Positions 18,555 through 46,523 of a stretch of 64,000 bases of DNA are shown here, piece by piece. Each line of letters begins with the position of its first letter. The stretch's first letter is position 1. Under the pieces are notes generated by a model, which was not told the origin of the DNA, made no database searches, and saw nothing but the letters and a program-made list of their open reading frames with translations. This stretch comes from Spongiibacter thalassae (GTDB taxonomy: Bacteria; Pseudomonadota; Gammaproteobacteria; Pseudomonadales; Spongiibacteraceae), in contig NZ_JAAWWK010000001.1 in assembly GCF_012272835.1 (NCBI RefSeq), positions 682,001 through 746,000 on the forward strand, written 5' to 3'. A program made the translations under genes and the position numbers.

Positions 18555-18603
18555 AGAGCGCAGTTGGTCCACGTTGAAATTACACAAGTAAGAGGATTGT
18601 ATC
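18555..18603. promoter_or_regulatory. Short divergent promoter between tetR and the E1-alpha operon
   Basis: Only 49 bases separate the two starts. AGAGGA at 18591-18596 is the ribosome site for ATG 18604. TCCAC followed directly by GTTGA lies at 18569-18578 and resembles the TCYAC-N3-GTDGA motif with the three-base centre missing; this may be chance. Confidence 0.35.
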
Positions 18604-19584: not shown

Positions 19585-19595
19585 GGAGAATGAAC

Positions 19596-20588: not shown

Positions 20589-20635
20589 CTTTCATCAATA
20601 GATAGTCGACAACAATTTGATAAGAGGTAGTACCT

Positions 20636-20872: not shown

Positions 20873-20958
20873 GGGATGGTTGTTGCGCCGTTCTCTGGAT
20901 TTGAGTGTGATTGATTCAGATTGTGGTTCGTATCGTCCAAGTTTGTGAGATTAGGTCT

Positions 20959-22419
20959 ATGAGTGATATCAGAGAGAAACTGAAAGGTCTATTGAGGGAG
21001 GATAATCACCAAACGCTACTGTCCTACCGGGGTGACGAGTGGTTGTGGTCCCACTGTGCCACGATTGTGGCGTCGATTGACCAACTTCTTTCCCGCGCTG
21101 GGATCGAGTCGTCAGTCAATGTGGGCTTGATTGCCAGGAACAGACCACCGCATGCGGCGGTTATCCTTGGCATGATAGCCCTTGATCGGCGTCTTACGAT
21201 GGTGCATGTGTATCAATCTCCTGAGGCTCTGGCGCAAGACGTTAAACAGTTACAGCTTGGTGTTGTTGTTGGAGACAGCGATGACTGGGCGAGCAACCTG
21301 AGTGAAATGGTAGAGCGTGAGGGGGTATTGGGCATCGTGCTCCCCTCCGAACGCGGTAGCAGTTGCTCGGCGGTCGGTGATTATCGGCATAGTGATGATC
21401 ACCGCCGTACGGAATCCAACGGATTTGAAGTGCTTAGCAGCGGTACAACCGGTACTCCGTCGAGGACAATCATGCCGTTTACCGTGGTTCAGCGCGCGCT
21501 GGATAGTATTCTGGCCGTTGGGCCTGAAGTCGCTCGGTCGGCGGAGATTGTCAGTTGGCCCTTCGGCACCATTGGCGGTCTGTGCCAGGTGGTCACTGCG
21601 AGTGTCTTGACCCGTCCCTTTGCCCTATTGGAAAAATTCAATCTCGATGAGTGGCTGGAAGCGATAGATCGCTATCAGCCGATGATCCTGTTTGTGCAAC
21701 CTGCGGTATTGCGCATCGTGCTCGATGCTGCAGTACCCAAGGAACGTTTGTCGTGTCTCCAGGTTATTTCCGGCGGGGCAGGTCCGCTTGAGCCGGAATT
21801 GCAGCGGCGTTTTGAGGAGCGCTATGGCATTCCGCTGCTTTGGGCTTACGGCGCGACAGAATTTTGCGGAACGATCATTAGCTGGACCTTTGAGCTACGT
21901 AAACAGTTTGGTTTGAGCAAAGCCGGAAGTGCTGGCAAACCTATATCCGGGGTGGAGGTGCGAGTGGTTGATGTCACCACGGAGCAACCCTTGCCCCCGG
22001 GTGACACCGGTTGGCTGGAAGCCAAAGTAAACGGACTGGGCGCCGACTGGGTGCGAACAACGGATCTGGCGGCGGTGGATGAAGACGGCTTTGTGTTTAT
22101 CAAGGGGCGTGGTGACGGCTCGATAAATCGGGGTGGGTTTAAAGTTCTTCCCGAGCAAGTCGTAGACTGCCTGCGGACGCATCCTGCGGTGCTGGACGCG
22201 GCGGTAGTCGGCATTGACGATAAAACACTTGGTCAGGTACCGGTAGCGGCCATTGAACTCGCCCGGGATGCGCAGGTAAGTGTGGATGAACTCGATCAAT
22301 TTGTTCGAGGTAAACTGCTCGCTTATCAGGTGCCGGCGCAATGGAAGATAGTTGAAAGCCTGCCAAGAACGTCGACGCTAAAGGTCAAGTTGACGGAAAT
22401 AGCGAGGTTGTTTCCGTAG
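20959..22419 (+). CDS. AMP-forming acyl-CoA synthetase-like (ANL superfamily)
   Basis: 486 residues from ATG 20959. ANL core motifs are recognisable: SSGTTGTPSR (161-170, lacking the usual PKG), YGATEFCG, TTDLAAVDEDGFVFIKGRGDGSINRGG, and a C-terminal LPRTSTLKVKL holding the likely adenylation lysine. It should activate a carboxylic acid as acyl-AMP and then acyl-CoA. The altered P-loop and short length make it a divergent member. It lies in the E1/ACAD operon, about 70 bases before the acyl-CoA dehydrogenase pair that could use its product. Confidence 0.8.
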   Translation: MSDIREKLKGLLREDNHQTLLSYRGDEWLWSHCATIVASIDQLLSRAGIESSVNVGLIARNRPPHAAVILGMIALDRRLTMVHVYQSPEALAQDVKQLQLGVVVGDSDDWASNLSEMVEREGVLGIVLPSERGSSCSAVGDYRHSDDHRRTESNGFEVLSSGTTGTPSRTIMPFTVVQRALDSILAVGPEVARSAEIVSWPFGTIGGLCQVVTASVLTRPFALLEKFNLDEWLEAIDRYQPMILFVQPAVLRIVLDAAVPKERLSCLQVISGGAGPLEPELQRRFEERYGIPLLWAYGATEFCGTIISWTFELRKQFGLSKAGSAGKPISGVEVRVVDVTTEQPLPPGDTGWLEAKVNGLGADWVRTTDLAAVDEDGFVFIKGRGDGSINRGGFKVLPEQVVDCLRTHPAVLDAAVVGIDDKTLGQVPVAAIELARDAQVSVDELDQFVRGKLLAYQVPAQWKIVESLPRTSTLKVKLTEIARLFP

Positions 22420-22489
22420 GACGGGAGGTGATGGCGTGGTATCGCCGCTTTACGTTACCGCCGTACTGCGAAACTATTGAGGAAGACCT

Positions 22490-23701
22490 ATGGATTTTGT
22501 ATTGGATCAATCGTTGGACGCCTTTCGGGCTGAGGTCCGTGAGTTTCTATCGTCAGCATTGCCGAAAGATATGGCTGAGCGAGGCCACCGTTGCTACCAC
22601 GAAGATAAGTCTGATGTGCTTGCGTGGATGAAAATACTCTGCAAAAAAGGCTGGTCGGCGAGCAACTGGCCGGTGGAGTTTGGCGGCACCGGGTGGGGAG
22701 CGGCAAAGCAGTTGGTGTTTGAGGAAGAATGTTTAGCCGCCGGTGCGCCCCAGCGGCCAGTGGTGGGATTGTCTCTGACCGGGCCAGTGATATACACCTT
22801 CGGCAGCGCTGAGCAAATCCAGCGCCATCTACCATTGATTAAAAATGGGGAAACCTGGTGGGGACAGTGCTTCTCAGAACCCAATGCGGGTTCAGACCTC
22901 GCCTCGATGACGTCCACAGCGACGAAGGAAGGCGATAGCTACCGTCTGAATGGCCATAAAATCTGGACGACTTTCGGTCAGTATGCAGACTGGTTGATTG
23001 TGCTGGCTGTCACCGATAAAACCGTGAAGCCCCAGCGGGGAATTTCATTTTTTCTGGTAGACGCCCATAGCCCTGGTATCACCATGAAGCCGATCTACTC
23101 AATGGAACGTGGTCACACATTAAATGAATTTTATTTTGAAGATGTTGTTATTCCCGCTGATGGTCTGGTGGGTGAAGAAGGGAAGGGCTGGTCTTATGCG
23201 AAGTTTCTTCTGGAGAACGAGCGTTCATGGAGTGCCGAAATACCACGGAACAAGGCACTGCTGCAACGGCTATTGCAGATTGCCAGGCTGCAGATAGATG
23301 GCGCAGAGCCAGCGATAAGCCGGCCCGTCTTTCGAGAAAAAATTGCAGACATTACCGCCAGATTGCATGCCCTGGAGATGCTGACTCTTAGGGCGATGAA
23401 TGAACACGAGTCCTGCAAGGGGGAGAGGCTGTCGAACTGGGAGTCTGGCTCGATGCTGCATATCAAGGGCTCTGAAATGCAGCAGGAGATAGGTGCGCTA
23501 ATGATGGAGCTATTGGGCTCCAGCGGAGCGCTCTACTACCCGAGTTATACACAGCGCCCGGGCGAAGAGTATCCGCCGGGGCCTGCGGAGGCCCACGGCG
23601 TTGCGGCAGACTTTCTGTATAGACGGGCGACGACAATTTACGGCGGTAGTAACGAAATTCAGCGAAATATAATCGCCAGGGCCCTGCTTGGGAACGTCTG
23701 A
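22490..23701 (+). CDS. Acyl-CoA dehydrogenase, alpha-type subunit (first cassette copy)
   Basis: 403 residues, preceded by GAGGAAG. FAD and substrate motifs are present (CFSEPNAGSDLASM, KIWTTFGQYADW, and C-terminal TIYGGSNEIQRNIIA). Gly occupies the position where medium-chain dehydrogenases carry their catalytic Glu, as in many bacterial FadE26/28-type subunits that use a Glu elsewhere. It is followed 21 bases later by a second, shorter ACAD, the arrangement of heterotetrameric steroid-side-chain dehydrogenases (ChsE type). A close paralogue is at 46638-47849. Confidence 0.88.
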   Translation: MDFVLDQSLDAFRAEVREFLSSALPKDMAERGHRCYHEDKSDVLAWMKILCKKGWSASNWPVEFGGTGWGAAKQLVFEEECLAAGAPQRPVVGLSLTGPVIYTFGSAEQIQRHLPLIKNGETWWGQCFSEPNAGSDLASMTSTATKEGDSYRLNGHKIWTTFGQYADWLIVLAVTDKTVKPQRGISFFLVDAHSPGITMKPIYSMERGHTLNEFYFEDVVIPADGLVGEEGKGWSYAKFLLENERSWSAEIPRNKALLQRLLQIARLQIDGAEPAISRPVFREKIADITARLHALEMLTLRAMNEHESCKGERLSNWESGSMLHIKGSEMQQEIGALMMELLGSSGALYYPSYTQRPGEEYPPGPAEAHGVAADFLYRRATTIYGGSNEIQRNIIARALLGNV

Positions 23702-23722
23702 ACTGGCATTGGAGCAACAGAA

Positions 23723-24829
23723 ATGAATTTTTTACTGGATGACGAGCAGAAGCAAATCAGGGACAGTGTTCGACGCTTTTTGAGCGGTAACTATCCCTTC
23801 GATGTCAGAACCGAATATGGACGCAGCGGAGAACCTTGCCCGGCAATAGTCGAACAGTTGGTGGCCGGGTCGTGGATTGGCGTGGCGATTTGCGACGAGC
23901 TTGGTGGTGTGGGTGCCGGATTCTCGGAAGCCTGTTTGATTGCTGAAGAGTTTGGTCGCGGACTGGTTGTGGAACCGTTCTGGGCATTGTCGATGGCGCC
24001 GACGGCATTGTTGGAAGGGTTGTCGGAACCATCAGCTCAGAGCACGTTGCAGGGTATTGCTGAAGGACGCTCGTTTGCGGCATTGGGCTTCAAAGGAGAG
24101 CCTCAACCCGGGGTAAGGGCGGAGTCTATTTCCCCTGAACTATTTAGTTTGTCCGGGGGGCCGTTGAGGGTGTATGGCAGTTCGGTAGCAAGCCATGTCC
24201 TTGTGATCGCGGCGATGGATAACAACAGCGCCCGTTGCGGACTGTTTTCCCTTCCAGTGGAGCAACTTTCGAATGAGTTAAAACAGTGGGAACAGCTCGA
24301 TGGCTCACGGGTTGGCTTCCTTGAGCTTAACGGCCTGCAATTGGCGAAAGATTGCCTTATCAGCGAATCCGCTGATTTGGTGGAACGATACGGGCGGGCT
24401 GAAAGCGTCGCCCTTATGGGGTACTGCGCGACAGCGTTGGGCATGATGGAGGCGGTACTGTCGCACACAACCGACTATCTGCAGGTGCGCACTCAGTTTG
24501 GTGTGCCTATCGGGCGCTTTCAAAGTTTGCAGCATCGTCTGGCTGATATGAAGAATGCCCTTGAGGAAGCTCGGGCTATCACACATCGGTCGTTGTGTTT
24601 TGTCGATCAGTCTCCGGAAAAATTCAAGGTGGCGGTTGCCGAGGCGAAGTATCTCGTGGGTAAGAGCGCGTCTTTTGTAGCCGCTCAAGGCGTTCAGCTT
24701 CACGGCGCCATCGGCCTGACGGACGAATTTCTCATCAGCCACTACTTCCGTGCACTGACTGTGTTCTGTCAATCCTTTGGTACTTGTTCCGATCTTTTGC
24801 AGAGCCTCGGAAATACCATTTCTGACTAA
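23723..24829 (+). CDS. Acyl-CoA dehydrogenase, beta-type subunit (first cassette copy)
   Basis: 368 residues. It opens MNFLLDDEQKQIRDSVRRFL and ends with the ACAD block GVQLHGAIGLTDEFLISHYFRAL, but the central TEPxAGSD FAD motif is missing. Such reduced partners pair with an alpha subunit to build one shared FAD site in alpha2beta2 dehydrogenases. It is read from the same transcript as the upstream alpha gene. Its counterpart in the second cassette is 47842-49065. Confidence 0.85.
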   Translation: MNFLLDDEQKQIRDSVRRFLSGNYPFDVRTEYGRSGEPCPAIVEQLVAGSWIGVAICDELGGVGAGFSEACLIAEEFGRGLVVEPFWALSMAPTALLEGLSEPSAQSTLQGIAEGRSFAALGFKGEPQPGVRAESISPELFSLSGGPLRVYGSSVASHVLVIAAMDNNSARCGLFSLPVEQLSNELKQWEQLDGSRVGFLELNGLQLAKDCLISESADLVERYGRAESVALMGYCATALGMMEAVLSHTTDYLQVRTQFGVPIGRFQSLQHRLADMKNALEEARAITHRSLCFVDQSPEKFKVAVAEAKYLVGKSASFVAAQGVQLHGAIGLTDEFLISHYFRALTVFCQSFGTCSDLLQSLGNTISD

Positions 24830-31013: not shown

Positions 31014-32138
31014 GTGAGCAAGGTTCAAAGGCAAAATATTGGTGTGCCCACGCAATCGCTTAAGCGCGACCCGGAGTCGACTAGTGAAATTCTTACTCAT
31101 TGGCTGAGCTCAGCATTGGGATTAACCGGAGAGTTTCGTATTACGAGCATAGATGTGCCCGGAGGGAGCGGCGTTTCCAGCGAGACGTTAATTGTTAAGG
31201 CAATGCTAAACGGCGCGCCAAAAAGCTATGTCATAAAGTGCGACACTCCCAACGGCTTATACATGAATGCCGATCTGCGGCAGCAATACAATGTCGTTGA
31301 TGTCCTTAAAGTAAAGTCAGACGTGCCGGTTCCTGCCGTCTACGGCTTTGAAAACGACGACTCATTGTTGGGGCAATCCTTTTACGTAATGGAGTGTATC
31401 GACGGCAAAGTGCCCGCTGATAATCCACCCTTCCACTTGAACGGCTGGGTCGTGGATTTAACGATCAGTGAACGCCGCGCCATGTTTAGCAGCGCTATCG
31501 AAAGTCTGGTGGCGGTACATCGAACGAATGTTGATTCGCTGGCATTTTTGCAGCGGCCGGAAAGGGGGGTTAGCGGCTTTGATCAGGAGTTTAGCTATTA
31601 CCTTGATTACGGTTTATGGGCGGCCCCTGAAGGCTTGCCAGTGGTGGTACAGCGCGCGATTGACTGGCTAAAAGCCAATTATCCCGATTCGACTCCCACG
31701 GGATTGTCGTGGGGGGATGCGCGACTGGGAAATATGTCTTTCCAGGATCTTCGCTGCAACGCGGTGCTGGATTGGGAGATGGTGTCGTTGGGCGGAGCTG
31801 AGCTCGACCTGGCGTGGTGGGCGTGTATGGATCGAGCGACAACGGTGAGCCTTGGAATTCCTCGTCTGGAGGGGGTCGGTTCACCGGCAGAGCTGGTCGC
31901 TGGTTGGGAGGACGTTATCGGGCGAAAAGCTGAAAATATGCGTTTTTATCTGGCGTTTAATGCCTATCGACTCGCGGTAATCGTGCTGAGGTTATCGCGC
32001 ATGCTGAAAAATGCGGGACGCCTCCCTGCAGAGTCAGAGTGGATGTTGCACAACAATACCGGTATGCAATATCTCGCGACCATGCTGGATTTGGAGCCAG
32101 CGGGTGAAATTACCCAACCGTGGCCTGGTATGGATTGA
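31014..32138 (+). CDS. APH-fold phosphotransferase (ACAD10/11 kinase-domain-like), first of two
   Basis: 374 residues from a GTG at 31014 with AAGGAG six bases upstream. The overlapping ATG at 31012 is immediately followed by TGA, so GTG is the start. The kinase catalytic loop reads WGDARLGN in place of HGDxxxxN, followed by the DWE metal motif. The fold is that of aminoglycoside phosphotransferases and the kinase domain of ACAD10/ACAD11, which phosphorylates 4-hydroxyacyl-CoAs. Antibiotic resistance is unlikely in this catabolic setting. Confidence 0.8.
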   Translation: MSKVQRQNIGVPTQSLKRDPESTSEILTHWLSSALGLTGEFRITSIDVPGGSGVSSETLIVKAMLNGAPKSYVIKCDTPNGLYMNADLRQQYNVVDVLKVKSDVPVPAVYGFENDDSLLGQSFYVMECIDGKVPADNPPFHLNGWVVDLTISERRAMFSSAIESLVAVHRTNVDSLAFLQRPERGVSGFDQEFSYYLDYGLWAAPEGLPVVVQRAIDWLKANYPDSTPTGLSWGDARLGNMSFQDLRCNAVLDWEMVSLGGAELDLAWWACMDRATTVSLGIPRLEGVGSPAELVAGWEDVIGRKAENMRFYLAFNAYRLAVIVLRLSRMLKNAGRLPAESEWMLHNNTGMQYLATMLDLEPAGEITQPWPGMD

Positions 32139-32153
32139 TAGGAGAAGCGTGCA

Positions 32154-33242
32154 ATGAATGTTGAAATTCCGAAAAATATTAAAGAACTGACGCCGGAGTG
32201 GCTGACAAGAGCACTGTCCTCTTATGGCGCCGCTGTAGAAATTAACGATGTCGAAGTGGTTGACATCTTTGAGGGGACCTCCAGCCGGATAAGGGTGCGT
32301 GTCGATCGTAATCACGCAGCGATTGAAGCAGGGCTCCCGGAGTTCCTGTGTGTGAAGGCTAACTGGACAAGCCATGCTGACTTTACGCTTGCCGCCGGTC
32401 TGTGGGCGGTGGAAGCACAGTTTTATCAGCACATCAGGCCAGGCATCGATATGTTGGCACCCGCTTCCTACTATTCAGATTATGACGCCGCTAACGGGCA
32501 GGGCATTATTCTGATGGAAGACCTGGTGCAGAAGCAGGCCCGCTTTGGCAGCAATGTGGCCACGCTGAGTGTCGATCAATTGGCGTCGGTATTGGCAGAG
32601 TTTGCCTCCCTGCATGCTCGCTGGTGGGGGAGTAGTGATCTTGAAAAAATGAGCTGGCTGCCACTCGCTCAGGGGACGGGCACCATCGACGCGGAATTTA
32701 TCAATTTCCAGGGAGGTGTGCCGGGAATGGAGGCCTTGCTGGCGCCACCGGAACGGGCGGCGACGCTGTCGGCCTACGGTAATAACCCTGCGAAAATGGC
32801 GAAGGTAGTCGATGCTCTCGTGGTACGCGAAGCTAAGTCCACGGCGCCGCGCTGCCTCATTCACGGCGACACCCATCTCGGCAACAGCTACTGGCTGGGC
32901 GATCGCTTGGGGTGGCTGGACTGGCAGCTGGTGAGGCGGGGTCGTCCAATACGAGAGGTAGCCTATGTTATTGGCTGTAGTCTGGGCATTGATGACCGAC
33001 GCCGGCATGAGCGCGATTTGCTGAGTCATTACCTTGATTGTCTGCGTGGGCAGGGTGTGGATCACGGTATGAGCGTGGATGACGCGTGGCTGGAGTATCG
33101 GCATTGGCCCGTGTGGGGATTTATCTGTTGGGCAGTAACGCAGGATGGCTGGCAACCCAAAGAGGTGATTTTGGAAACCATGGCCAGATTCGGTGCAGCA
33201 ATTGATGATCTTGAAACGTACTCCCTGTTCGATGGGTGTTAG
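32154..33242 (+). CDS. APH-fold phosphotransferase / EcKinase-like, second of two
   Basis: 362 residues, starting 15 bases after the first kinase. It keeps the canonical catalytic loop HGDTHLGN and has DWQ at the metal site. Sequence similarity to the first kinase is low outside the loops, so these are not a recent duplication. Members of this broad family phosphorylate small hydroxyl compounds, including steroid-like ecdysteroids and hydroxyacyl-CoAs. A hairpin follows at 33269-33296, so this is probably the last gene of the P450 unit. Confidence 0.8.
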   Translation: MNVEIPKNIKELTPEWLTRALSSYGAAVEINDVEVVDIFEGTSSRIRVRVDRNHAAIEAGLPEFLCVKANWTSHADFTLAAGLWAVEAQFYQHIRPGIDMLAPASYYSDYDAANGQGIILMEDLVQKQARFGSNVATLSVDQLASVLAEFASLHARWWGSSDLEKMSWLPLAQGTGTIDAEFINFQGGVPGMEALLAPPERAATLSAYGNNPAKMAKVVDALVVREAKSTAPRCLIHGDTHLGNSYWLGDRLGWLDWQLVRRGRPIREVAYVIGCSLGIDDRRRHERDLLSHYLDCLRGQGVDHGMSVDDAWLEYRHWPVWGFICWAVTQDGWQPKEVILETMARFGAAIDDLETYSLFDGC

Positions 33243-35779: not shown

Positions 35780-36409
35780 TTACTTGGGTTCGGCGCCGGC
35801 GAGTATACGGCTAAAGGCGACATCGAGGGCGCCCTTTAATTCCTTTAGCAGGTAGGGTTGGTCGTTGCCGCTGTAATTTCGCGCCAGATCCAGTGCGCCG
35901 AGCAAAACAGTGTTGTAAAGCAACTGGATTTGACGAGTCTCCTCAATACTCAAGCCGGCTTCCAGCATGCAGTCTCTCAGTGCGTTGACGATGCGTGAGG
36001 CGCTCTCGGGATAATTGTGGTCCAAGCTGTTGAGTAAACCATGTCGAGCCAATTCGGGGTATTCCGAGGAGAGCTCAAGGCCTTTTTTGATGATGGTGGC
36101 AAAGCGCTCTTTCCAGCTCTGATTAGTGTCCGGGAGGGTCCAGCGGTCAAGCATGGAGGCGGCAGCCAACTCGTAGAGCTCCTCCTTGTTTTTTACCATG
36201 GTATACAGCAGCCGCGGTGATACGCCGACTTCTGATGCGAGCTTGCGCATCGACAGGCTGCCGGGGCCGTCGCGTTTCTCCATCACAAGCACGGCTCTTA
36301 TCAGATCAGCCCGATTGGGGGTGGGGGCGTCGTCGCGGCTGCGACGACCTCGTTTGGCGGGTGGTTTGGTGGCGGCGTCTTTGGGCGCGGCCGCCGTGTT
36401 TTTTGGCAT
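35780..36409 (-). CDS. TetR-family regulator coupled to the SCP2-P450 gene
   Basis: 209 residues. A basic, Ala/Pro-rich N-terminal tail (about 1-30) precedes the helix-turn-helix (SLSMRKLASEVGVSPRLLYTMVKNKEELYEL). The ATG overlaps the TAA of the upstream SCP2-P450 gene by one base (TAATG), so expression is coupled. It may regulate its own operon through the TCCAC-GAT-GTGGA site at 38162-38174 and the three related sites in the window (inference). The C-terminal domain looks like the TetR_C group but is not assigned further. Confidence 0.88.
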   Translation of the reverse strand: MPKNTAAAPKDAATKPPAKRGRRSRDDAPTPNRADLIRAVLVMEKRDGPGSLSMRKLASEVGVSPRLLYTMVKNKEELYELAAASMLDRWTLPDTNQSWKERFATIIKKGLELSSEYPELARHGLLNSLDHNYPESASRIVNALRDCMLEAGLSIEETRQIQLLYNTVLLGALDLARNYSGNDQPYLLKELKGALDVAFSRILAGAEPK

Positions 36410-38100
36410 TAGTCAGGATTCCAGATAACAGGTATCGCAGTTGGGCTGCGGAAACTTTTGCCGCGAATATGCGCGTCCTGTTTGACAACTTCGTCGCTGT
36501 CAAAACGTAGACCCGGCAGGGCGTCCAGCAATTTGTTGACCGCAATTTTGATTTCTAAGCGCGCTAAATGCAAGCCAATACAGGTGTGTACGCCGGTGCC
36601 GAAGGTGATGTGGCGAAGATTTGCACGGTGAATGTTGAAGCGCTCACCGTCTTCGACAAACTCGGGGTCGCGATTCGCTGCGCCCAGCAGTGGCAAAACG
36701 ATGGCGTTTTCGGGAACGATGGTGTCGCCAAGGCGCATTTCGCGCAGGGCTAGTCGCGGAGTCAGTTGTACCGGAGGGTCCATGCGCAGGGTTTCTTCGA
36801 TGGCGCGGCCGACCAAACCGCGATCATTACGCACATCTTCAAGTTGACTGGGGTTGTCGAGCAAGTGGAAGAGCAGGTTGCCCAGAGCGCGATAGGTGGT
36901 TTCGATACCGGCGGGAAGTAGCAGCAACAAAAAGGAGTAAATTTCCTCGTCGCTGAGTTTTTTGCCGTCGATTTCCGCGTGTACCAGTTCGCTGATCATA
37001 TCCTCTTCGGGGGCAGCGCGACGGGCTTCCAGAAACGGAGCGAGGTAGGCGCGTACTTCCTGGGCGCACTCGGCTGCGCGGTCCGGGTCGGCGACCCCTT
37101 CAAGAATGCCCACTGCCCAAAGTTGAAACTGTGCAAAATTCTCCTGGGGCAGGCCGATAATCTTGCCTACAACGCGGGCGGGGTAGGCGAAGGTGAAATC
37201 TGCGACCAGGTCGGCCTTGTTGCCTTTTGCCTTCATATTGGCAATCAGCTCGTCCACCACTTGGTGGATAAGGCTTTCTTCCCATTTTTTAAGCAGTTTC
37301 GGTCGCAGTGCCGGGGCGACGAGATTGCGATACCCGGCGTGGGCTGGTTCGTCCATGCCGACCAGAATATGGTCGCCCATTACGCTGCTATACATGTTTT
37401 GCAGCACCACACTGGAAAAGTCTTCGTTGTTGCGCAGGCAGGCATTGACCTCGGTGTGACCATACAGGTAGACCAGCGTCCCCGCGTTTTCACCGAAGCG
37501 ATCGGTTTCCAGTTCGACTCTGTTTTGGCTGCGCCGCCGGGCCCATTCGGTATGGGGGGCGCGGGGGTCGCCGGGGGGATCGACGGGGGTTTCCATATAC
37601 AAGAGCCGATCGACAAAGCCTTCGCTGTCGGAATCTTGCTCGGCAGTTGGAGTGGGTGCGAGAGTGGCGGTGTCAGTGGCGGGCGAGGGTGTCGCCTGTG
37701 CAGGGTGAGCCCCAATAATCTGCTTAAGTGTCGCTATGCTGCGCTTAAGCAAGCTTGGCTTCGTATTGTTTGCTGTCGGGGTAGATGAGAGCGCCGTCAT
37801 ATCAAAATAGCTGGTCATGCTTTGGCCGAGTTTCAAGTTGCCTCGAGTTTTCATGCGGCCGGTCATGACGGCTACCATGCCGTTGATCTCACCGGTCAGC
37901 ACCTGGCGCATCACCTCGTCGTTGGCGCTGAGGGTCAGACTCGGCTGGGGCGACTGCCCCAGACTGAACTCACAGCGACCATTGCTGATGCTCAGGTAGC
38001 AGGGTTCGCTGATGTCGAATTGAAAAATAGCGTGGGCATCGCCGGCCACCTCGGGTAAAAAACCCTTGGGGAGTTGTTCAATAAGTTCACGGGTGTTCAC
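36409..38100 (-). CDS. Natural fusion of an SCP2 sterol-carrier domain to a cytochrome P450
   Basis: 563 residues from GTG 38100, which has AGAGG eight bases upstream; the open frame reaches 38166 but that extension crosses the operator. Residues about 1-105 form an SCP2-like domain (AIFQFDISEP...LTLSANDEVMRQVLTGEINGM...GNLKLGQ). A linker rich in Ala, Thr, Pro and Ser follows to about 160, then a complete class I P450: I-helix AGIETT, EETLR, and FGTGVHTCIG with the haem cysteine near 507. SCP2 binds sterols and acyl-CoAs, so the fusion may deliver a hydrophobic substrate to the haem. I know of no characterised enzyme with this order, though I cannot search. Confidence 0.88.
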   Translation of the reverse strand: MNTRELIEQLPKGFLPEVAGDAHAIFQFDISEPCYLSISNGRCEFSLGQSPQPSLTLSANDEVMRQVLTGEINGMVAVMTGRMKTRGNLKLGQSMTSYFDMTALSSTPTANNTKPSLLKRSIATLKQIIGAHPAQATPSPATDTATLAPTPTAEQDSDSEGFVDRLLYMETPVDPPGDPRAPHTEWARRRSQNRVELETDRFGENAGTLVYLYGHTEVNACLRNNEDFSSVVLQNMYSSVMGDHILVGMDEPAHAGYRNLVAPALRPKLLKKWEESLIHQVVDELIANMKAKGNKADLVADFTFAYPARVVGKIIGLPQENFAQFQLWAVGILEGVADPDRAAECAQEVRAYLAPFLEARRAAPEEDMISELVHAEIDGKKLSDEEIYSFLLLLLPAGIETTYRALGNLLFHLLDNPSQLEDVRNDRGLVGRAIEETLRMDPPVQLTPRLALREMRLGDTIVPENAIVLPLLGAANRDPEFVEDGERFNIHRANLRHITFGTGVHTCIGLHLARLEIKIAVNKLLDALPGLRFDSDEVVKQDAHIRGKSFRSPTAIPVIWNPD

Positions 38101-38156
38101 AATGGCATCCTCTGTATTTTTATGTTGTGAGATCGTGTCTGTCGATGTGTACGTAT

Positions 38157-38180
38157 TTAATTCCACGATGTGGATATAGT
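38157..38180 (-). promoter_or_regulatory. Candidate operator TCCAC-GAT-GTGGA upstream of the SCP2-P450 gene
   Basis: The core at 38162-38174 is the most symmetrical of the four TCYAC-N3-GTDGA sites. It lies 62 bases before the GTG start and is flanked by the same AATT and ATATA bases as the site at 10952. Confidence 0.55.
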
Positions 38181-38224
38181 GTTGATCAAAACTGAGCCTC
38201 TGTCAATTGCTGGTGCGTGTGGTG

Positions 38225-38836
38225 TTATTGAAGAGAGTCTATAACAGTGTCGGCGGTGGTCATTGCCGCCAGCGGTGACAGCATATAGGTTACGATGGCA
38301 TCGTGGGTGGCCTGGTCGGAACCGGCAATAGCGTCTTCGGGGATGACAATGCGGTAGCCTCGGTCAAGGCCGCCCAGCATCATTCCCGGTACGGCGGCGT
38401 TGGTAGACACCCCCGCCAGTACCAGATTGGTGCAGCCGAGATTGTGCAACAGGGATTCCAGGTGATTGCCATAGAAGGCGGTCATGCCCGAGTAGCGGCG
38501 AACAATGTGGTCGCTGTCCTGGGGGCGCAGCGCGCCAACAATCTCCACCTGAGGGCTGCCCTCTACCAATCCTCCGCGTTTGCGAATATAGGCGACTGCG
38601 GGATTGTTGAGGCTCACTCCGGCAAAGTCCGGGCGGTGTTCCACATTGATATAGATCACCGGCATATGGTGTCGGCGAAAGGCGTCGGCCAAGGCCGCGA
38701 TGCGCGGCACAATTTGCCGCTGTGCAGCGTGCCGGGTGATGGCCGGCAGCACGCTGTGCTCGGGCTCCAGCAGGCCGCGCTGGCATTCGTTAATCAGGAG
38801 GGCGCTGCGGCCCTCCAGTTGCAGTGGTGCCGTCAT
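38225..38836 (-). CDS. Isochorismatase-fold cysteine-hydrolase-like protein lacking the usual triad
   Basis: 203 residues from ATG 38836. An open frame extends upstream into the acyl-CoA ligase gene but is a shadow. The fold pattern is clear (ALLINECQRG, VIYINVEHRPD, LVLAGVSTNAAVPGM, GYRIVIPEDAI). The catalytic Asp reads as Glu (INECQ), the lysine region has Arg, and the nucleophilic Cys position has Ala. Some subgroups such as YecD also lack the Cys. Either chemistry differs or the protein binds rather than hydrolyses. It follows the ligase by 11 bases. Confidence 0.78.
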   Translation of the reverse strand: MTAPLQLEGRSALLINECQRGLLEPEHSVLPAITRHAAQRQIVPRIAALADAFRRHHMPVIYINVEHRPDFAGVSLNNPAVAYIRKRGGLVEGSPQVEIVGALRPQDSDHIVRRYSGMTAFYGNHLESLLHNLGCTNLVLAGVSTNAAVPGMMLGGLDRGYRIVIPEDAIAGSDQATHDAIVTYMLSPLAAMTTADTVIDSLQ

Positions 38837-38847: not shown

Positions 38848-40395
38848 TCACTGGCAGTAGGTTTTGCGCAGGGTGACCTTGTCGATTTTCCCTGTGGGCA
38901 GCTTGGGTATCGCCTCGGCAAAGATTACCGAGCGCGGCTTTTTGTAGCTGGCAATCATTGTTTGGCAATGGCCGATCACCTCTGCCTCGGTCAGGGTCTC
39001 GCCGTCGCGCATCACCACTACTGCGCACACGGATTCGCCCCACTTGTCGTCGGGCATACCGATGACGGCGCACTCGCTGATCGCTGCGTGGCTCAGAATG
39101 GCGTCCTCAACTTCCCGTGAGTAAATGTTCTCGCCGCCGGAGATAATTACGTCTTTTTTCCGGTCCACTAAATACAGCATGCCATCTTCGTCAAACATGC
39201 CCACGTCGCCGGTGTAGCACCAGCCGTCGCGGAAGGTTTCAAGGGTGGCTTTATGATTGTTCCAGTAGCCACGGGCCATGGCGGTTGACTGCACCACGAT
39301 CTCGCCGGCCACCTCAGGCGGGCAGGGTTGGCCGTTGTCATCTTCAATGCGAATGCGGGTGCTTGGGAAGGGTTGACCTACAGAGGTGAGCCAGCGCTTT
39401 TCGCGGTCGCTGCCGTCGGGACGATGCTGTTCGCGCAACAGTCCCGAGCTGAACACTTCGGTCTGGCCGTAGAGATTCATAAATATCGGGCCGAGCAGTT
39501 CCATGCCGCGTTTGAGCAAGGGCAGTGGCATGGCGGCGGCGGAGTAAACAATGGTGTGCAGTTTGCTGACGTCGATCTCGCCGATATTGGGCTGGTCGAG
39601 CACCATTTGCACCAGTGTTGGCGCGAGGTGGAGTATGGTTACGCCGTCGTCGTTAACCGCCTGCAGCAGTGCCGCGGGGTCGAACTGACGGTGCAGTACT
39701 ACCGTGCCGCCGCGAAAATGTACCCCCATGCCCATGGCCATCGCGCCGATATGGAACAGGGGCATGACCAGCAAAATGCGATCCTCAGGGCCAGAGCGGG
39801 TTTCTACCGCCATGGTCTGGGCGCCGAGGCGCATTTCCCGCTGGCCGAGAATACAGCCCTTGGGCTTGCCGGTGGTGCCGCTGGTGTAGATCAGTGCGGC
39901 GATATCTTCTTCCCGAGCGCGATAGCTAGGGCCTGTGGCGTCGCCGCTGGCGATGAAGTCTTCGTAGGAAGTAGCCCAATCGACCTCGCCGTCGATGCAG
40001 ATATAGCGCTCGACACTGGTCAGTTGCTCGCGCAGACCGTCGAGCAATTCCGCGTACTGGGCTTCAAAAAAGAGGATGCGCGGACTGGAGTCGTTAACGA
40101 TATGGGCGATTTCCGGGCCGGCCAGGCGGAAGTTGACCGTTGAAAGGATTAGTCCGCTCCACTGGCAGGCGGCCATCAATTCGCCGTAGGGAAGGTTGTT
40201 CATAGACAGCACGCCAACCCGATCCTGCCGTTGCAGTCCGCTTTTCTCTGCGGCGGAGGCGATGCGCAGTGCGCGCTCCAGCAGCTGACGGTGGCTGATC
40301 TGCTGGTCACCCATAATATAGGCGGGCTGGTCGGAAAAGCGTTGGGCGTTGTCTTCCAGTGTGTCGGCTAGCGTAAAGGGCACGTGGTCTCTCAC
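38848..40395 (-). CDS. AMP-forming acyl-CoA synthetase (FadD-like)
   Basis: 515 residues with every ANL motif: YTSGTTGKPKG, YGQTE, YTGDVGMFDEDGMLYLVDRKKD, and the C-terminal LPKLPTGKIDK with the catalytic lysine. It activates a carboxylate to acyl-CoA. It is transcribed divergently from the FadE34-like gene across a 128-base promoter and in the same direction as the SCP2-P450 gene, so it may prime the acid produced by that P450. FadD3/FadD17-type steroid ligases are possible analogues, but substrate is not determined. Confidence 0.92.
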   Translation of the reverse strand: MRDHVPFTLADTLEDNAQRFSDQPAYIMGDQQISHRQLLERALRIASAAEKSGLQRQDRVGVLSMNNLPYGELMAACQWSGLILSTVNFRLAGPEIAHIVNDSSPRILFFEAQYAELLDGLREQLTSVERYICIDGEVDWATSYEDFIASGDATGPSYRAREEDIAALIYTSGTTGKPKGCILGQREMRLGAQTMAVETRSGPEDRILLVMPLFHIGAMAMGMGVHFRGGTVVLHRQFDPAALLQAVNDDGVTILHLAPTLVQMVLDQPNIGEIDVSKLHTIVYSAAAMPLPLLKRGMELLGPIFMNLYGQTEVFSSGLLREQHRPDGSDREKRWLTSVGQPFPSTRIRIEDDNGQPCPPEVAGEIVVQSTAMARGYWNNHKATLETFRDGWCYTGDVGMFDEDGMLYLVDRKKDVIISGGENIYSREVEDAILSHAAISECAVIGMPDDKWGESVCAVVVMRDGETLTEAEVIGHCQTMIASYKKPRSVIFAEAIPKLPTGKIDKVTLRKTYCQ

Positions 40396-40523: not shown

Positions 40524-42749
40524 ATGAATTTGTATTTGACTGACGAACAGAACATGTTGCAGGAGACGGCGGCGCGCCTGTTTGCCGCTGAGTCTACCGG
40601 GGAGCGGGTTCGCTCCGTTGAGGCCACTGGCTTCGACCCTGAGCTGTGGCAGCAACTGCAGGAAATGGGTCTGAATTTGATGCGCCTGCCCGAAGAGGCC
40701 GGCGGATTGGGCAGCAGTCTGCTTGATGCCGTTATCGTGGCGGAGCAGGCGGGGCGCCATATTGCGTCAGTGCCTCTGGTGGAGCATCTGGCAGCCTCTC
40801 GTTTGCTGGCCGGGCTGGCACAGCAAGAGCGCGCTGGTGCAGCACTTGCTCAGCTTGCAGAGGGCAGTTTGATTACCCTGTTGCCGCAGGTGTTGTCCGA
40901 TAAGCAAGCGCCAGTGAATGGTGCAACGGCGGCACAGTACACCCTGTTGGCAGATGCCGAGGCAGTCTATTTACTTGACGCCCGGCACTTTGATCGAGTC
41001 GATAACCTCGGCAGCGGCGCAGTGGGTGTGCTGAAAGAGTCGGTGGCATTGTCCGAGTTTGCTATCGCCAGCGGCGACGACGCTCTGGCGTTGTTCGCGG
41101 CGGCCTGTGATGAATGGCGCCTGCTGTGTGCGGCGGCGCTGGGCGGGCTGGCTGAGCAGGGTTTGCGCATGGCCGCAGAGTACGCCAACGAACGCAAAGC
41201 CTTTGGCACGCCGATCTCCAGTTTTCAGGGTATTTCCCACCCGTTGGCCGATGCCATTTCCCAGGTTGAAGGTGCGCAGCTGCTGACCCGCAAGGCGGTT
41301 TGGGCGCTTGCCACCGCGCGCGCGGACGCGGCGGCCAGCGTGGCAATGGCGTTCTGGTGGGCGGCGGACATCAGCTCCAAGGCAATGGCCAGGGCGCTGC
41401 ACACCTTTGGCGGCTATGGCGTGTCGCTGGAATACGATATTCAAATGTATTATCGCCGAGCCAAGGCCTGGCCGGCCTTTGCCGGTGACGCACAGCGCAG
41501 TCTGCTTGATGCCGCTGATCGGCTGTGGCCGGAACCGCGCAACGCTCGGCGTCCGGCCGTGCTTCCCGACGCGGGAGAAAACCAACAGGATTACAGCTTG
41601 GGCGCCGATGCCGAGGCTTTTGCCGAGCAAACCCGCGCCTTTTTTGCCAAGCATATGACCCCGGAGCTGCGCGCCCACGCGCATCACTCTGTAGATGGAT
41701 TTCACCCCGAATTCAACCGCCTGGCGGCGCAGGAGGGTATGTTGTTCCCCCATTGGCCCAAGGAGTACGGGGGGCTGGAAAAGAGCGCCTACGAGCTGGC
41801 GGCAATGACTGCGGTATACGAGGCCGAAGGCTGGGAGCACGTTACTGCACCGATTACCAATCAGGTCGCGCAGATAGTCATGCGCTTTGGCACCGATGAA
41901 GCGAAGGCGGAATCACTGAACCGCTTTGCCTCGGGTGATGCACTGGCCTGTATGGGCTTTACCGAGCCCTCCTGTGGCTGTGATGTCTTTGCAGCAAAAA
42001 CACTAGCGGAACCCACCGAGAGTGGCGACTGGCTGATTAACGGCCAGAAGATTTTCACCACTGCGGCCAACCTGGCAGATTATTGCTTCCTGCTGGCCCG
42101 TACCAATACTGACAAGCCCAAACATGCCGGTTTGAGTGTATTTCTGGTGCCCATGGATCTGCCGGGTATCGAAGTGCATGCGGTGCACACCCTGCAGGAC
42201 GAGCGCACCAATATTGTGTATTTCAGTGATGTTCAGCTGCCCGCCAAATATTTGGTTGGCGAGGTCGATGGCGGTTTGAAAGTGATGGCCTCTACGCTGG
42301 AAATGGAACACGGTTCGGCGGATCAATATCGCCACGGCCACGTTACGGCCTTCCACGCAGCTGAGTCCTGGGCGCTGAATGCCCAGCGCGACGGCCAGCC
42401 GGTGTTGGCCGACAATCAGACTGCCAGTCGTTTGGCCCGCTCCAGAGTGCATCTGGAAGTGTCTACGATGCTTTGCTATCGCGCTATCTGGTGTATGTCG
42501 GAAAAAATTCACAACCGGTACTGGGGGCCAATGGCCAAGCTGTTTGCCACCGAGTATTACCAGCGTGACGCTGACGACCTGATGGATCTGTGCGCACCGC
42601 ACAGCATTATTCAGCAGCGCGATGGGCTTGGGCATCTTGAAGTCGGCTACAGACAGTCGATTGGCACCACGATTTATGGTGGCACCAGTGAGGTGCAGCG
42701 TAGTCTGGTTGCCGAACAGGCCCTGGGCCTGGCTCGCTCGCGGGGCTGA
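40524..42749 (+). CDS. Fused two-domain acyl-CoA dehydrogenase (FadE34/ChsE3-like)
   Basis: 741 residues, twice the usual ACAD length. Residues 1 to about 345 form a complete beta-type domain (MNLYLTDEQNMLQETAARLF, ERKAFGTPISSFQG, HTFGGYGVSLEYDIQMYYRRAK). Residues about 365-741 form an alpha-type domain with GFTEPSCGCDVFA, KIFTTAANLADY and TIYGGTSEVQRSLVAEQAL. Mycobacterial FadE34 (ChsE3, about 711 residues) has this layout and oxidises steroid side-chain acyl-CoAs. This is the strongest single pointer to steroid-like side-chain degradation in the window. It heads a long plus-strand operon. Confidence 0.9.
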   Translation: MNLYLTDEQNMLQETAARLFAAESTGERVRSVEATGFDPELWQQLQEMGLNLMRLPEEAGGLGSSLLDAVIVAEQAGRHIASVPLVEHLAASRLLAGLAQQERAGAALAQLAEGSLITLLPQVLSDKQAPVNGATAAQYTLLADAEAVYLLDARHFDRVDNLGSGAVGVLKESVALSEFAIASGDDALALFAAACDEWRLLCAAALGGLAEQGLRMAAEYANERKAFGTPISSFQGISHPLADAISQVEGAQLLTRKAVWALATARADAAASVAMAFWWAADISSKAMARALHTFGGYGVSLEYDIQMYYRRAKAWPAFAGDAQRSLLDAADRLWPEPRNARRPAVLPDAGENQQDYSLGADAEAFAEQTRAFFAKHMTPELRAHAHHSVDGFHPEFNRLAAQEGMLFPHWPKEYGGLEKSAYELAAMTAVYEAEGWEHVTAPITNQVAQIVMRFGTDEAKAESLNRFASGDALACMGFTEPSCGCDVFAAKTLAEPTESGDWLINGQKIFTTAANLADYCFLLARTNTDKPKHAGLSVFLVPMDLPGIEVHAVHTLQDERTNIVYFSDVQLPAKYLVGEVDGGLKVMASTLEMEHGSADQYRHGHVTAFHAAESWALNAQRDGQPVLADNQTASRLARSRVHLEVSTMLCYRAIWCMSEKIHNRYWGPMAKLFATEYYQRDADDLMDLCAPHSIIQQRDGLGHLEVGYRQSIGTTIYGGTSEVQRSLVAEQALGLARSRG

Positions 42750-42773: not shown

Positions 42774-43931
42774 ATGGAAAAGTTCCCACGAGGAAAATCT
42801 GCCATTGTTGGCGCCGCGACCTTCGGTATGGGCGAAGCCCACGGCTACAAGCCGATGGATCTGGTGGCACGCTCTGCCCACCTGGCGCTTGCCGACGCCA
42901 ATCTGTCCCTTAGTGACGTTGACGGCCTGTTTGTGTGTACTGGAGACGATGCGCTCTCCGGACTCGCGGCGGCGGAGTATCTGGGGATTCGGCCACGGTT
43001 CACCGACAATAACCGCACCGGTGGCTCGGCGTTTTTCTCCCATGCCATCAATGCGGCAATTTTGCTGGAAATGGGCTATATCGATACCGCACTGATCTGC
43101 TATGGCAGCAACCAGCGCACCGGTGCCGGCGGACTGGTGTCAATGCGCCAGGCTTCTCCCTATGAAAAGCCCTACCGCCCGATGAACCCCTTGTCGTCCT
43201 ATGCCCTGGCTGCTGCGCGGCATATGCATGAATACGGCACTACCGAAACCCACCTGGCCGAGGTGGCGGTTGCTGCCCGGGCCTGGGCTAACCTCAATCC
43301 CGAAGCCTTTATGCACGGCAAGGGTGAGCTGAGCATCGACGACTGTTTGAGTTCGCGGATGGTCTCGGACCCTCTGCGTAAAACCGATTGCTGTCTGATC
43401 ACCGACGGCGGGGCGGCGATCGTTATGACCCGCGCTGATCGTGCCAAAGACCTGGTGAAAAAGCCGATTTATTTGCTCGGCGGTGCCGCCGCAGTGTGGC
43501 ATTCCAATGTCGATCAAATGGAAAATCTGACTGTCACTCCAGCCGCGGAGTCCGGTCAGCGGGCCTTTGCCCTGTCGGGCTACAAGCCCGCTGATATGGA
43601 TGTGGTCAATGTCTATGACGCCTTTTCCATCAACACCATTCTGTTCCTCGAGGATCTGGGCTTTTGTCCCAAGGGCGAGGGCGGCAACTTTGTTTCCGGT
43701 GGCGCCATCGCACCCGGAGGCAGCCTGCCGGTGAATACCAACGGGGGTGGTTTGTCCTGCTGCCATCCTGGGATGTACGGTCTGTTTACGATAATCGAAA
43801 ACTGTCTGCAACTGCGTGGCGAAGCCGGGCAGCGGCAAGTCGCCAATGCCAACCTTGCGGTGTCTCACGGCAATGGCGGCACCCTGTCCAGCGAAGCTAC
43901 CCTGGTGCTTGGCACCGAGGCGACGCTATAA
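42774..43931 (+). CDS. Thiolase-fold lipid-transfer protein (Ltp2 / SCP-x-like)
   Basis: 385 residues. Thiolase-fold features are visible (NNRTGGSAFFSHAINAA, GGGLSCCHPGMYG), but the nucleophilic Cys of true thiolases is absent in the RTGGSA segment. V-N-V-Y281-D282-A-F matches the catalytic tyrosine/aspartate segment of Ltp2-type retro-aldolases. Ltp2 cleaves the last side-chain C-C bond of steroids together with a DUF35 protein. No DUF35 gene is visible here, so any partner is elsewhere. It begins 24 bases after the fused dehydrogenase. Confidence 0.85.
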   Translation: MEKFPRGKSAIVGAATFGMGEAHGYKPMDLVARSAHLALADANLSLSDVDGLFVCTGDDALSGLAAAEYLGIRPRFTDNNRTGGSAFFSHAINAAILLEMGYIDTALICYGSNQRTGAGGLVSMRQASPYEKPYRPMNPLSSYALAAARHMHEYGTTETHLAEVAVAARAWANLNPEAFMHGKGELSIDDCLSSRMVSDPLRKTDCCLITDGGAAIVMTRADRAKDLVKKPIYLLGGAAAVWHSNVDQMENLTVTPAAESGQRAFALSGYKPADMDVVNVYDAFSINTILFLEDLGFCPKGEGGNFVSGGAIAPGGSLPVNTNGGGLSCCHPGMYGLFTIIENCLQLRGEAGQRQVANANLAVSHGNGGTLSSEATLVLGTEATL

Positions 43932-43955: not shown

Positions 43956-44753
43956 ATGTCTTTTTTTGATCGTTATGAATTCTTCAAGTTTGAGCGTCGC
44001 GGCAAGGTGCTTAACATCATTCTCAATAATCCGGAAAAGCTGAACGCCTTCAGCGAAACCGGCCATAAGGAGTTGTCGCGGGTGTTCTTCGACGCGGCGG
44101 AAGATCTGGAAAGCGAAATCATCGTGGTGAGTGGCGCAGGTCGTGCCTTTACCGCCGGTGGCGATCTGGAATATATGCAAAAGCTGCGGGACAACCCCGA
44201 GCTGATGCATCGCACAATTCGCGAAGCCAAGCGTTTTGTTTACACCCTGCTGGACTGCGAAAAGCCGGTAATCTGTAAGGTCAATGGCGATGCGATTGGC
44301 TTGGGCACTACGCTCTCATTCCTGGCCGACATCACCTTTTCTACCGAAGACGCCAAGTTCGGCGACCCGCACAACAACGTTGCGCTGATTGCCGGCGATG
44401 GCGGCAGCGTGATCTGGCCCCAACTGATGGGCTATGCCCGTGCCAAGCACTACCTGTTCACCGGTGAAGTCTTAAAGGGTAAAGAAGCTCAGGAAATGGG
44501 CCTTATTCACAAGGCGCTGCCCGCCGAAGAGCTGGATGCTGCAGTGGATGCCTACTGCGACCGCCTGTTGGCAATGCCCATCCAGTCAGTGCGCTGGACC
44601 AAGCAAGTAGTGAATATTCCCCTGAAGCAACTGGCCCACAGCATGATGGATGCGGGTATGGCCTACGAGCATATCGCTGGTCAGACAGAAGACCACCAGG
44701 AAGCGATCAATGCCTTCCGCGAGCGTCGCAAGCCGGTTTTCACTGGAAAATAA
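43956..44753 (+). CDS. Enoyl-CoA hydratase/isomerase-family protein (crotonase), first
   Basis: 265 residues, with GGAG before the ATG. Crotonase oxyanion-hole motifs are present (AFTAGGDL, and ADITFS...KFGDPHNNVALIAGDGG). At the second catalytic position it has Asp in GDGG rather than Glu, and the first Glu is not obvious in DPHNN. So hydratase activity is uncertain; isomerase, hydrolase or retro-Claisen chemistry is possible. It ends FRERRKPVFTGK, an ending shared with the two other crotonases of the window. Confidence 0.85.
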   Translation: MSFFDRYEFFKFERRGKVLNIILNNPEKLNAFSETGHKELSRVFFDAAEDLESEIIVVSGAGRAFTAGGDLEYMQKLRDNPELMHRTIREAKRFVYTLLDCEKPVICKVNGDAIGLGTTLSFLADITFSTEDAKFGDPHNNVALIAGDGGSVIWPQLMGYARAKHYLFTGEVLKGKEAQEMGLIHKALPAEELDAAVDAYCDRLLAMPIQSVRWTKQVVNIPLKQLAHSMMDAGMAYEHIAGQTEDHQEAINAFRERRKPVFTGK

Positions 44754-44771
44754 ACCGCAGCTGGTCGTGTC

Positions 44772-44792
44772 GGGGCGGATAACACCCGCCCC
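44772..44792 (+). repeat. Intra-operon hairpin between two crotonase genes
   Basis: GGGGCGG (44772-44778) pairs with CCGCCCC (44786-44792) around a seven-base loop. There is no T run, so it more likely stabilises or processes mRNA than terminates. Confidence 0.4.
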
Positions 44793-44818
44793 TGACAATA
44801 GTCATAAGGCGAAAAAGC

Positions 44819-45613
44819 ATGAGTGACCTGACAGATTCCGGTAGCCCGATCACCCTGAACAAACAGGGGGCGATCAGCCTCATTCAACTGAACAACCCCA
44901 AGCGGCGCAATGCGCTCAGTCGGGAAATGACCACGCTGTTGGCCGATGCCCTGCGCGAAGCCCATGCAGATGAGGAGTGTCGCGCCATTGTGCTCAGCGG
45001 TGCAGGCGAACATTTCTGTGCCGGTGGCGATGTTTCGGCGATGCAGGCGGAGCGACCGATTCTGGGCTCTCGTCTGCGCATCGAACACGCCCATCACATT
45101 GTGCGCCTGTTAGCAGCCGGGCCAAAACCGGTGGTGTGCGCTATTGAGGGCGTTGCCTACGGGCTGGGTATGTCTCTGGCACTGGCCTGCGACATTGTGG
45201 TGGCCGCTGAAGGAAGCTCAATGTGTGCGGTGTTTAACAAGGTCGGTCTGGTCCCGGACATGGGTTTGATGTGGACCCTTGCCCAGCGGGTCGGGGTGGC
45301 GCGATCCAAACAGCTGTGCTTCAGCGCCGAGGCGATTGATCTTGAGTCGGCGCTGGGCCTTGGTCTGGTAGACCACCGCGCGGATAAGGGGGCGGCTGTG
45401 GCGGTAGCCCTCGACCGCGCGGCGGCCTTTACCCGGTCGGCGCCGATGCCCATTGCTCTGGTCAAGGCGGCCTATGCCAAGGGCTTCGGCTCACTGGAAG
45501 ACGCCCTGCGCGCTGAAGTGGACTACCAGCCAGCGCTGTATCTCAGCGCTGACCACCAGGAGGGTGTTAACGCCTTCTTTGAAAAAAGAAAGCCCGAATT
45601 CAAGGGCAAATGA
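44819..45613 (+). CDS. Enoyl-CoA hydratase/isomerase-family protein (crotonase), second
   Basis: 264 residues. Motifs are HFCAGGDV for the oxyanion hole and ACDIVVAAEGSSMCAVFNKVGLVPDMGLMW for the second half. Position two reads PDMGL, so one catalytic acid is conserved as Asp. The ending FFEKRKPEFKGK is shared with the crotonase at 54685. It lies between the first crotonase and the MaoC hydratase, so the operon encodes two chemically distinct hydratase folds. Confidence 0.86.
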   Translation: MSDLTDSGSPITLNKQGAISLIQLNNPKRRNALSREMTTLLADALREAHADEECRAIVLSGAGEHFCAGGDVSAMQAERPILGSRLRIEHAHHIVRLLAAGPKPVVCAIEGVAYGLGMSLALACDIVVAAEGSSMCAVFNKVGLVPDMGLMWTLAQRVGVARSKQLCFSAEAIDLESALGLGLVDHRADKGAAVAVALDRAAAFTRSAPMPIALVKAAYAKGFGSLEDALRAEVDYQPALYLSADHQEGVNAFFEKRKPEFKGK

Positions 45614-45662
45614 GCTGCCCTGGATAATTGGGTCGAGCCTCACTGACAGGAAAGAACACATA

Positions 45663-46523
45663 ATGGCATCACGCTACAAAGACTTGTTGGCACTTGAAAT
45701 ACCGGAAAAAACCGTGCACTACACCGCACGGGATTGCCAGCTGTATGCCTTGAGCCTGGGCCTGGGGACAGACCCCCTCGACCCGGCGCAATTGGCCTTT
45801 GTCTACGAAAAATCACTGCAGGTACTGCCCAGCCTGTCCATGACTTTGGCGCACCCGGGATTCTGGGCCAGGGATCTCGACACCGGTCTGGACTGGGTAA
45901 AAATTCTCCACGCAGGGCAGTCTATGGTTGTGCATCAACCGCTGCCGGCTGAGGCGGATATTGTTGCCCGCAGCCGTGTGGTGGATGTGCTCGACAAGGG
46001 TGAGGGCAAGGGCGCGCTGGTGTATTTCGAGCGTCAATTGATTGATCGCCAAACCGACACCCTGTACTGCACGATGGTGCAAACCATGTTCTGCCGCGGT
46101 GATGGCGGTATGGGCGGCAATCCCGAATTGCAACCGGTGGTACATCGAATACCGGAGCGCTCTCCCGATACAGAGTTCAGTTGGGCAACATCGCCGCAAA
46201 TGGCGTTGTTATACCGACTCAACGGCGACATGAACCCCCTCCATGCGGATCCGGATATTGCCCAAAAGGCCGGTTTCAAACAGCCGATACTTCAGGGCCT
46301 GGCCAGTTTCGGTGTGGCCTGTGCCAGCCTGATTCAACAGTGTTGCGAGAATGACGCGACACGGCTGTTGAGTATGGAGTGCCGATTCAGCGCGCCGGTT
46401 TATCCCGGTGAGACCCTGCGTACGCAAATGTGGCGTGAGAACGAAGGTGTCTATTTCCGCGTTTTGGTCGAGGGACGGGATGCGAAGGCCATCGACAACG
46501 GGTTTATGGCAATTCGCGCCTGA
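45663..46523 (+). CDS. MaoC-like double-hotdog enoyl-CoA hydratase 2
   Basis: 286 residues from ATG 45663 with AGGAAAG upstream; a longer frame from 45453 overlaps the previous gene and is rejected. The C-terminal hotdog has the complete hydratase-2 motif YRLNGDMNPLHADP with D189 and H194. It hydrates trans-enoyl-CoA to (R)-3-hydroxyacyl-CoA. The N-terminal hotdog holds the LPAEADIVARSRVVDVLDKGEGKGA substrate-binding half. A paralogue lacking the motif is at 50544-51458. Confidence 0.92.
   Translation: MASRYKDLLALEIPEKTVHYTARDCQLYALSLGLGTDPLDPAQLAFVYEKSLQVLPSLSMTLAHPGFWARDLDTGLDWVKILHAGQSMVVHQPLPAEADIVARSRVVDVLDKGEGKGALVYFERQLIDRQTDTLYCTMVQTMFCRGDGGMGGNPELQPVVHRIPERSPDTEFSWATSPQMALLYRLNGDMNPLHADPDIAQKAGFKQPILQGLASFGVACASLIQQCCENDATRLLSMECRFSAPVYPGETLRTQMWRENEGVYFRVLVEGRDAKAIDNGFMAIRA

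Follow-up and report, generated by a model that had tools for sequence, protein, structure and literature searches.

A single reading frame of Spongiibacter thalassae (RefSeq assembly GCF_012272835.1) encodes an N-terminal SCP2 sterol-carrier domain, an Ala/Thr/Pro-rich linker and a complete cytochrome P450 on one chain. The frame is uninterrupted and lies on the minus strand at positions 38100–36412 of the window, by which we mean the whole stretch of 64,000 nucleotides that was analysed (contig NZ_JAAWWK010000001.1, positions 682,001 to 746,000). With its stop the gene occupies 36409..38100 and encodes 563 residues, and a TAATG sequence overlaps its stop with the start of the next gene. Pfam matches to both domains in the expected order bear out the preliminary description, which had read this layout from the letters of the sequence. 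We consider it somewhat more likely than not that the SCP2 domain, on a flexible tether, keeps a hydrophobic substrate close to a class I P450. In the proposed mechanism, the SCP2 domain would take up a hydrophobic compound, or a CoA ester of it, in its lipid pocket, and the flexible linker would keep it close to the mouth of the P450 pocket, whereby a substrate of poor solubility would be locally concentrated for the P450. Electrons would reach the P450 from a ferredoxin whose gene lies at another place in the genome, and the oxidised product would pass into the adjoining CoA-ligase and β-oxidation-like cluster. Ligand binding, transfer to the P450, the redox partner, the direction in which the pathway runs and a substrate resembling a terpenoid or steroid are what we infer. 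As to whether this is a natural P450 with a covalent lipid carrier that draws insoluble substrate out of membranes or lipid droplets and feeds it into the haem pocket, we judge the chances to be even.

The open frame reaches from GTG 38166 (585 residues, 22 more than in the shorter form) to the stop at 36409. We prefer GTG 38100, from which translation is likelier to start judging by the sequence, because it has a Shine–Dalgarno-like AGAGGA (duplex −5.8 kcal/mol, compared with +2.7 kcal/mol at GTG 38166) and lines up with the ATG start of the Zhongshania marina orthologue. The two domains do not appear to be separated by an internal start: from residue 80 to residue 367, every in-frame ATG or GTG scores weaker than −4 kcal/mol, and Met169 at the P450 boundary has a weak predicted site (−1.7 kcal/mol), which argues against production of a free P450. 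A frameshift or two-gene reading, a possibility that the preliminary description had raised in part by naming a frameshift as a refuting finding, is ruled out by the identical single-frame layout in Z. marina, by the dN/dS pattern and by the lack of a strong internal start in that range. A similar AATTGACA-containing stretch is found 5′ of the fusion gene in both species (window 38120–38210; Z. marina L032:14720–14800) and is a possible promoter or TetR operator.

The SCP2 domain (37789..38100, minus strand; residues 1–104) is delimited by PF02036, by alignment with free-standing SCP2 proteins and by a profile match to solved SCP2 domains. PF02036 matches the N-terminal part, as had been anticipated, with 42.6 bits (E = 8.2e-11) against a curated cut-off of 21.3, over residues 44–121 of the 585-residue form or 22–99 counted from GTG 38100. 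The aligned SCP2 proteins, which are mostly free-standing with frames of 110–140 residues, widen the domain to residues 1–104 and show that the family motifs are conserved. Used as a profile with its kin, the SCP2 part retrieves 15 distinct PDB sequences at E ≤ 0.001, including 3cnu, 1ikt and 1c44, and this agreement with solved SCP2 domains lends support to substrate delivery; as a single query it matches eight PDB sequences at 0.01 (best 5.3e-4). AlphaFold models of the SCP2 part with the start of the linker and of the fusion, each with few input sequences, have mean pLDDT values of 33.7 and 44.3 and are too poor to reveal either a pocket or an interface. The SCP2-profile search yields one match in Z. 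marina, which is the fusion, and two in the window genome, the second of which is probably the C12 copy, a sequence with 17% identity that was also among those from which the search profile was built. The name of the family does not prove a sterol ligand; the accessible text of PMC6747719 and PMC9499169 reports ubiquinone intermediates as ligands of the UbiJ SCP2 domain, and quinone intermediates and other lipids as ligands of other SCP2 domains.

The P450 domain (36412..37620, minus strand; residues 161–563) matches PF00067 over 364–548 with 103.7 bits (E = 1.3e-29; curated cut-off 22.8). Direct reading locates MDEPAHAGYR (249–258), AGIETT (397–402), ExxR (436–439) and FGTGVHTCIG (500–509), the last three of which we take to be the acid–Thr motif of the I helix, the ExxR motif and the haem Cys loop; all elements of the P450 signature are thus present. 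Matches extend to 483 distinct PDB sequences, the best being 4rm4 at 2.7e-57. The closest solved relatives by sequence, 4rm4 and PksS (4yzr), are class I soluble bacterial P450s; unlike the fusion, their chains of 396 and 405 residues are too short for an SCP2 part. Pfam places only SCP2 and P450 on the fusion chain in both species, with no redox domain (ferredoxin, flavodoxin or reductase), and a self-sufficient P450 was therefore rejected. The window genome contains 17 Fer2 matches, the nearest on the contig of the fusion being ∼66 kb away, and no Fer2-type ferredoxin was matched within the window. The same genome encodes about 22 P450s, counted from 25 matches of which three each appear to be the second piece of a gene. 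A second unusual P450 fusion is encoded on its contig C7 (L007:698–2464), in which a DUF3237 domain (88.5 bits, cut-off 24) lies C-terminal to the P450; the gene directly 3′ of it is TetR-like by eye.

An orthologue with the same architecture is present in Z. marina ZX-21 (NZ_PQGG01000002.1; genome G016), with 77% identity over query residues 1–561 and Pfam scores of 51.1 bits for SCP2 and 108.7 bits for P450; the two hosts are related bacteria of marine origin. Both domains exceed their curated cut-offs in both species, a further point in favour of delivery. In a codon comparison of the two orthologues, the SCP2 domain has 74% amino-acid identity (dN 0.19, dS 1.38, ratio ∼0.14) and the P450 83% (dN 0.12, dS saturated), while the fast-evolving linker (37621..37788, minus strand; residues 105–160, about 56 residues) retains 33% (dN 0.77, with four gap codons). 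Since both domains change slowly while the linker drifts, the fusion is real and has been kept; neither accidental joining nor a sequencing error would produce such a pattern. By these rates the SCP2 part is retained for function and the linker behaves like a tether, and the low ratio beside a drifting linker adds to the case for delivery. A near-neutral fusion, joined by accident and with the SCP2 part merely aiding folding or solubility, would fit the finding that, among the samples searched, the architecture occurs only in two species of a single genus, but purifying selection on the SCP2 domain alongside a drifting linker, together with its conserved family motifs, makes this very improbable.

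The SCP2–P450 fusion is rare in the samples searched and was observed in two species of one genus. At 1e-5 the SCP2 part matches four of 18 genomes of the genus sample (Zhongshania), being fused in two (the window genome, G000, and G016) and free-standing in two (G002 and G003); another genome of the genus, G008, has one weak SCP2-profile match (7.7e-7). The full protein matches six of 57 relatives at 1e-60, over its whole length in G000 and G016 only, the matches at the five remaining listed places starting at residue 201 or later, and at 1e-70 it matches two of 390 genomes of the order sample. The SCP2 profile at 1e-6 matches 184 of 381 genomes of the order, where the two fusions are the only frames longer than 294 residues among the matches listed, and PF02036 is present in 326 of 398 genomes of the phylum sample, where the matches listed do not reach as far as the window's own; the three longest frames among them (401, 469 and 502 residues) gave no hit with the local P450 profile and were also missed by the local SCP2 profile. 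In the class sample the SCP2 part at 1e-5 matches 10/369 genomes, and only the window's own frame exceeds 298 residues. Among plasmids, the protein matches 1350 of 72,556 records, in none of them over 80% of its length, and no plasmid matches the SCP2 part by itself at 1e-3; a scan of viral contigs with the P450 alignment found no SCP2–P450 fusion. Coverage beyond the sampled phylum consists of the plasmid records and of a narrow scan of genome contigs with two SCP2 peptides from two close sequences, which detects close kin only. Searches of the openly accessible literature on P450s with SCP2, sterol-carrier or fusion partners (subscription papers and preprints lying outside this scope) brought up no paper on an SCP2–P450 fusion, and the main text of a survey of gammaproteobacterial P450s (PMC7998510) does not mention fusion, fused, SCP2, sterol carrier or Zhongshania. 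Within these bounds the architecture is as unusual as first supposed.

Two other members of the genus carry SCP2 and P450 as separate genes. The row in G003 comprises a TonB receptor (called by blastp to TonB genes of the window), P450, FAD dehydrogenase, SDR, CoA ligase, SCP2, E1 alpha and E1 beta, with the free SCP2 gene directly downstream of the CoA ligase, and G002 has a matching row by gene lengths, its P450 and SCP2 being recognized by local profiles. SCP2 and P450 are thus pathway neighbours elsewhere in the genus, and these rows joining a free SCP2 with a P450 favour delivery. Several features of the comparison count against it: the P450 of G003 shares only ∼30% identity with that of the fusion; the free SCP2s do not cluster with the fused one in a weakly resolved tree (13 rows, L009 left out); the rows of G002 and G003 probably represent a single orthologous locus; and none of nine SCP2 loci outside the genus has a P450 beside it (local profile; flanks of up to ∼10 kb, with one contig of 5 kb).

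SCPx and MFE-2 (17-beta-HSD4) likewise have SCP2 covalently attached to a lipid-metabolising (β-oxidation) enzyme, and the solved relatives of the fused SCP2 include 1ikt and 4uei; the partner enzyme there is not a P450, and SCP2 is at the C-terminus in both proteins, whereas it is N-terminal here. UbiJ and UbiT are separate SCP2 accessory proteins of ubiquinone biosynthesis, in contrast to the single chain of the fusion. The partners of UbiT, UbiU–UbiV, are iron–sulphur hydroxylases, whereas UbiJ works with hydroxylases of the flavin type; neither kind is a P450. In PMC6747719 and PMC9499169, UbiJ is reported to bind hydrophobic intermediates as part of an assembly that includes hydroxylases; this is the analogy for the proposed mechanism and speaks for delivery. 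The same sources report that UbiJ both binds intermediates and structures a multi-enzyme complex, and that it touches the membrane in simulations, so that the fused SCP2 domain might mainly serve for docking or membrane contact, anchoring the P450 to the membrane or to other pathway enzymes (the ligase or the dehydrogenase), rather than pass substrate on to the haem. A short basic TKPS–LKR stretch, conserved within the otherwise fast linker, would suit such a role, but its amphipathicity is no higher than in shuffled sequences (0.08–0.22 of shuffles reach the same value), and we regard docking as unlikely from this analysis. An amphipathic membrane helix in the linker was rejected on the same values.

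Returning to substrate delivery, BM3 and CYP116B are, in the openly accessible literature, natural P450s with an extra domain on the same chain; there the extra domain supplies electrons, whereas in the SCP2–P450 chain it has a lipid-carrier fold. If the proposal is correct, this would be a fusion for substrate delivery in place of the electron-delivery fusion usual in that literature, and a template for directing P450s to insoluble compounds (steroids, terpenes and lipids). Comparing the enzyme with its SCP2 part and without it would then also be a clean way to test the direct hand-over of a ligand from an SCP2 domain to an enzyme.

The fusion is the third gene of a minus-strand row of acyl-CoA ligase, isochorismatase-like hydrolase, SCP2–P450 and TetR-type regulator. 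The ligase (38848..40395; PF00501; 86% identical in Z. marina) heads this operon-like row and matches NCBIfam PRK06187 with 486.8 bits (cut-off 476). The hydrolase (38225..38836; PF00857; 76%), the start of which was picked by eye in a listed frame extending to 39073, has the putative isochorismatase 3kl2 and the biuret hydrolase 6xjm as nearest solved proteins; the regulator (35780..36409; PF00440; 60%) lies directly downstream of the fusion. On the plus strand, divergent from the ligase, are a tandem-fused acyl-CoA dehydrogenase (40524..42749; 741 residues; assigned by Pfam), a thiolase or lipid-transfer-protein-type gene (42774..43931; PRK06158, 628 bits, cut-off 421) and three genes of an acyl-CoA pathway that Z. 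marina also has (43956..46523), which by inspection are two putative enoyl-CoA hydratases (43956–44753 and 44819–45613) and a putative MaoC-like protein (45453–46523). Both rows are retained in Z. marina at 60–96% identity; the next window genes, at 46638 (acyl-CoA dehydrogenase) and 47650, lack close counterparts in the stretches compared from Z. marina and G011.

The halves of the tandem dehydrogenase match 6wy8_A and 6wy8_B, two chains of a heteromeric ACAD, its best match being 4x28_A, and PDB matches of the thiolase-type protein include the lipid-transfer protein 6ok1, the best being 4u4e, titled thiolase only. We take 6wy8, 4x28 and 6ok1 to be steroid side-chain enzymes, and the resemblance of the cluster to these ACAD and thiolase structures favours delivery, as does the growth on cholesterol reported for isolates of the same family, Spongiibacteraceae, in the accessible text of PMC5790920. 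A steroid substrate is a lead only, because among the window proteins scanned the named NCBIfam steroid models stay below their cut-offs: the ligase scores 249.5 bits with the CasG model (cut-off 750) and the FAD protein at 16239 scores 164.5 bits with the 3-ketosteroid-delta-1-dehydrogenase model (cut-off 789). A firm steroid pathway assignment was rejected for this reason, and the shortfall also weighs against delivery. The delivery role, which we infer, is partly supported, by the steroid-like acyl-CoA surroundings and by the SCP2/P450 rows of the two sister species.

A third species, G011, retains the ligase, isochorismatase, dehydrogenase, thiolase, next three genes and an amidohydrolase at 76–96% identity, with neither the fusion nor an SCP2-profile match. 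The P450 is thus not required everywhere by the core pathway, and the cluster without the fusion is a point against delivery. An amidase and a different TetR regulator (L042:6285–8695) occupy the place of the window's SCP2–P450–TetR genes in G011, so that the fusion looks like an entry step that varies between strains and leads into a shared acyl-CoA pathway. The SCP2 domain could also serve the product side, passing the oxidised product or a ligase-made CoA ester to the acyl-CoA dehydrogenase, as the CoA ligase at the head of the same row and the position of the free SCP2 gene in G003 would allow; SCP2 is fused to the P450, however, and not to the ligase, and G011, in which genes for ligase and dehydrogenase are present, gives no match to the SCP2 profile, and we hold this arrangement to be distinctly improbable.

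Elsewhere in the window, a second catabolic row (14896–24829) contains a Rieske oxygenase, a KstD-like FAD protein, E1 alpha/beta, a ligase and two ACADs; parts of the G003 row (L035) are similar to it, with P450 and SCP2 in addition. Two adjacent APH-type kinase-like genes are located at 31014–33242, the second of which matches the ecdysteroid-kinase-like family EcKL.
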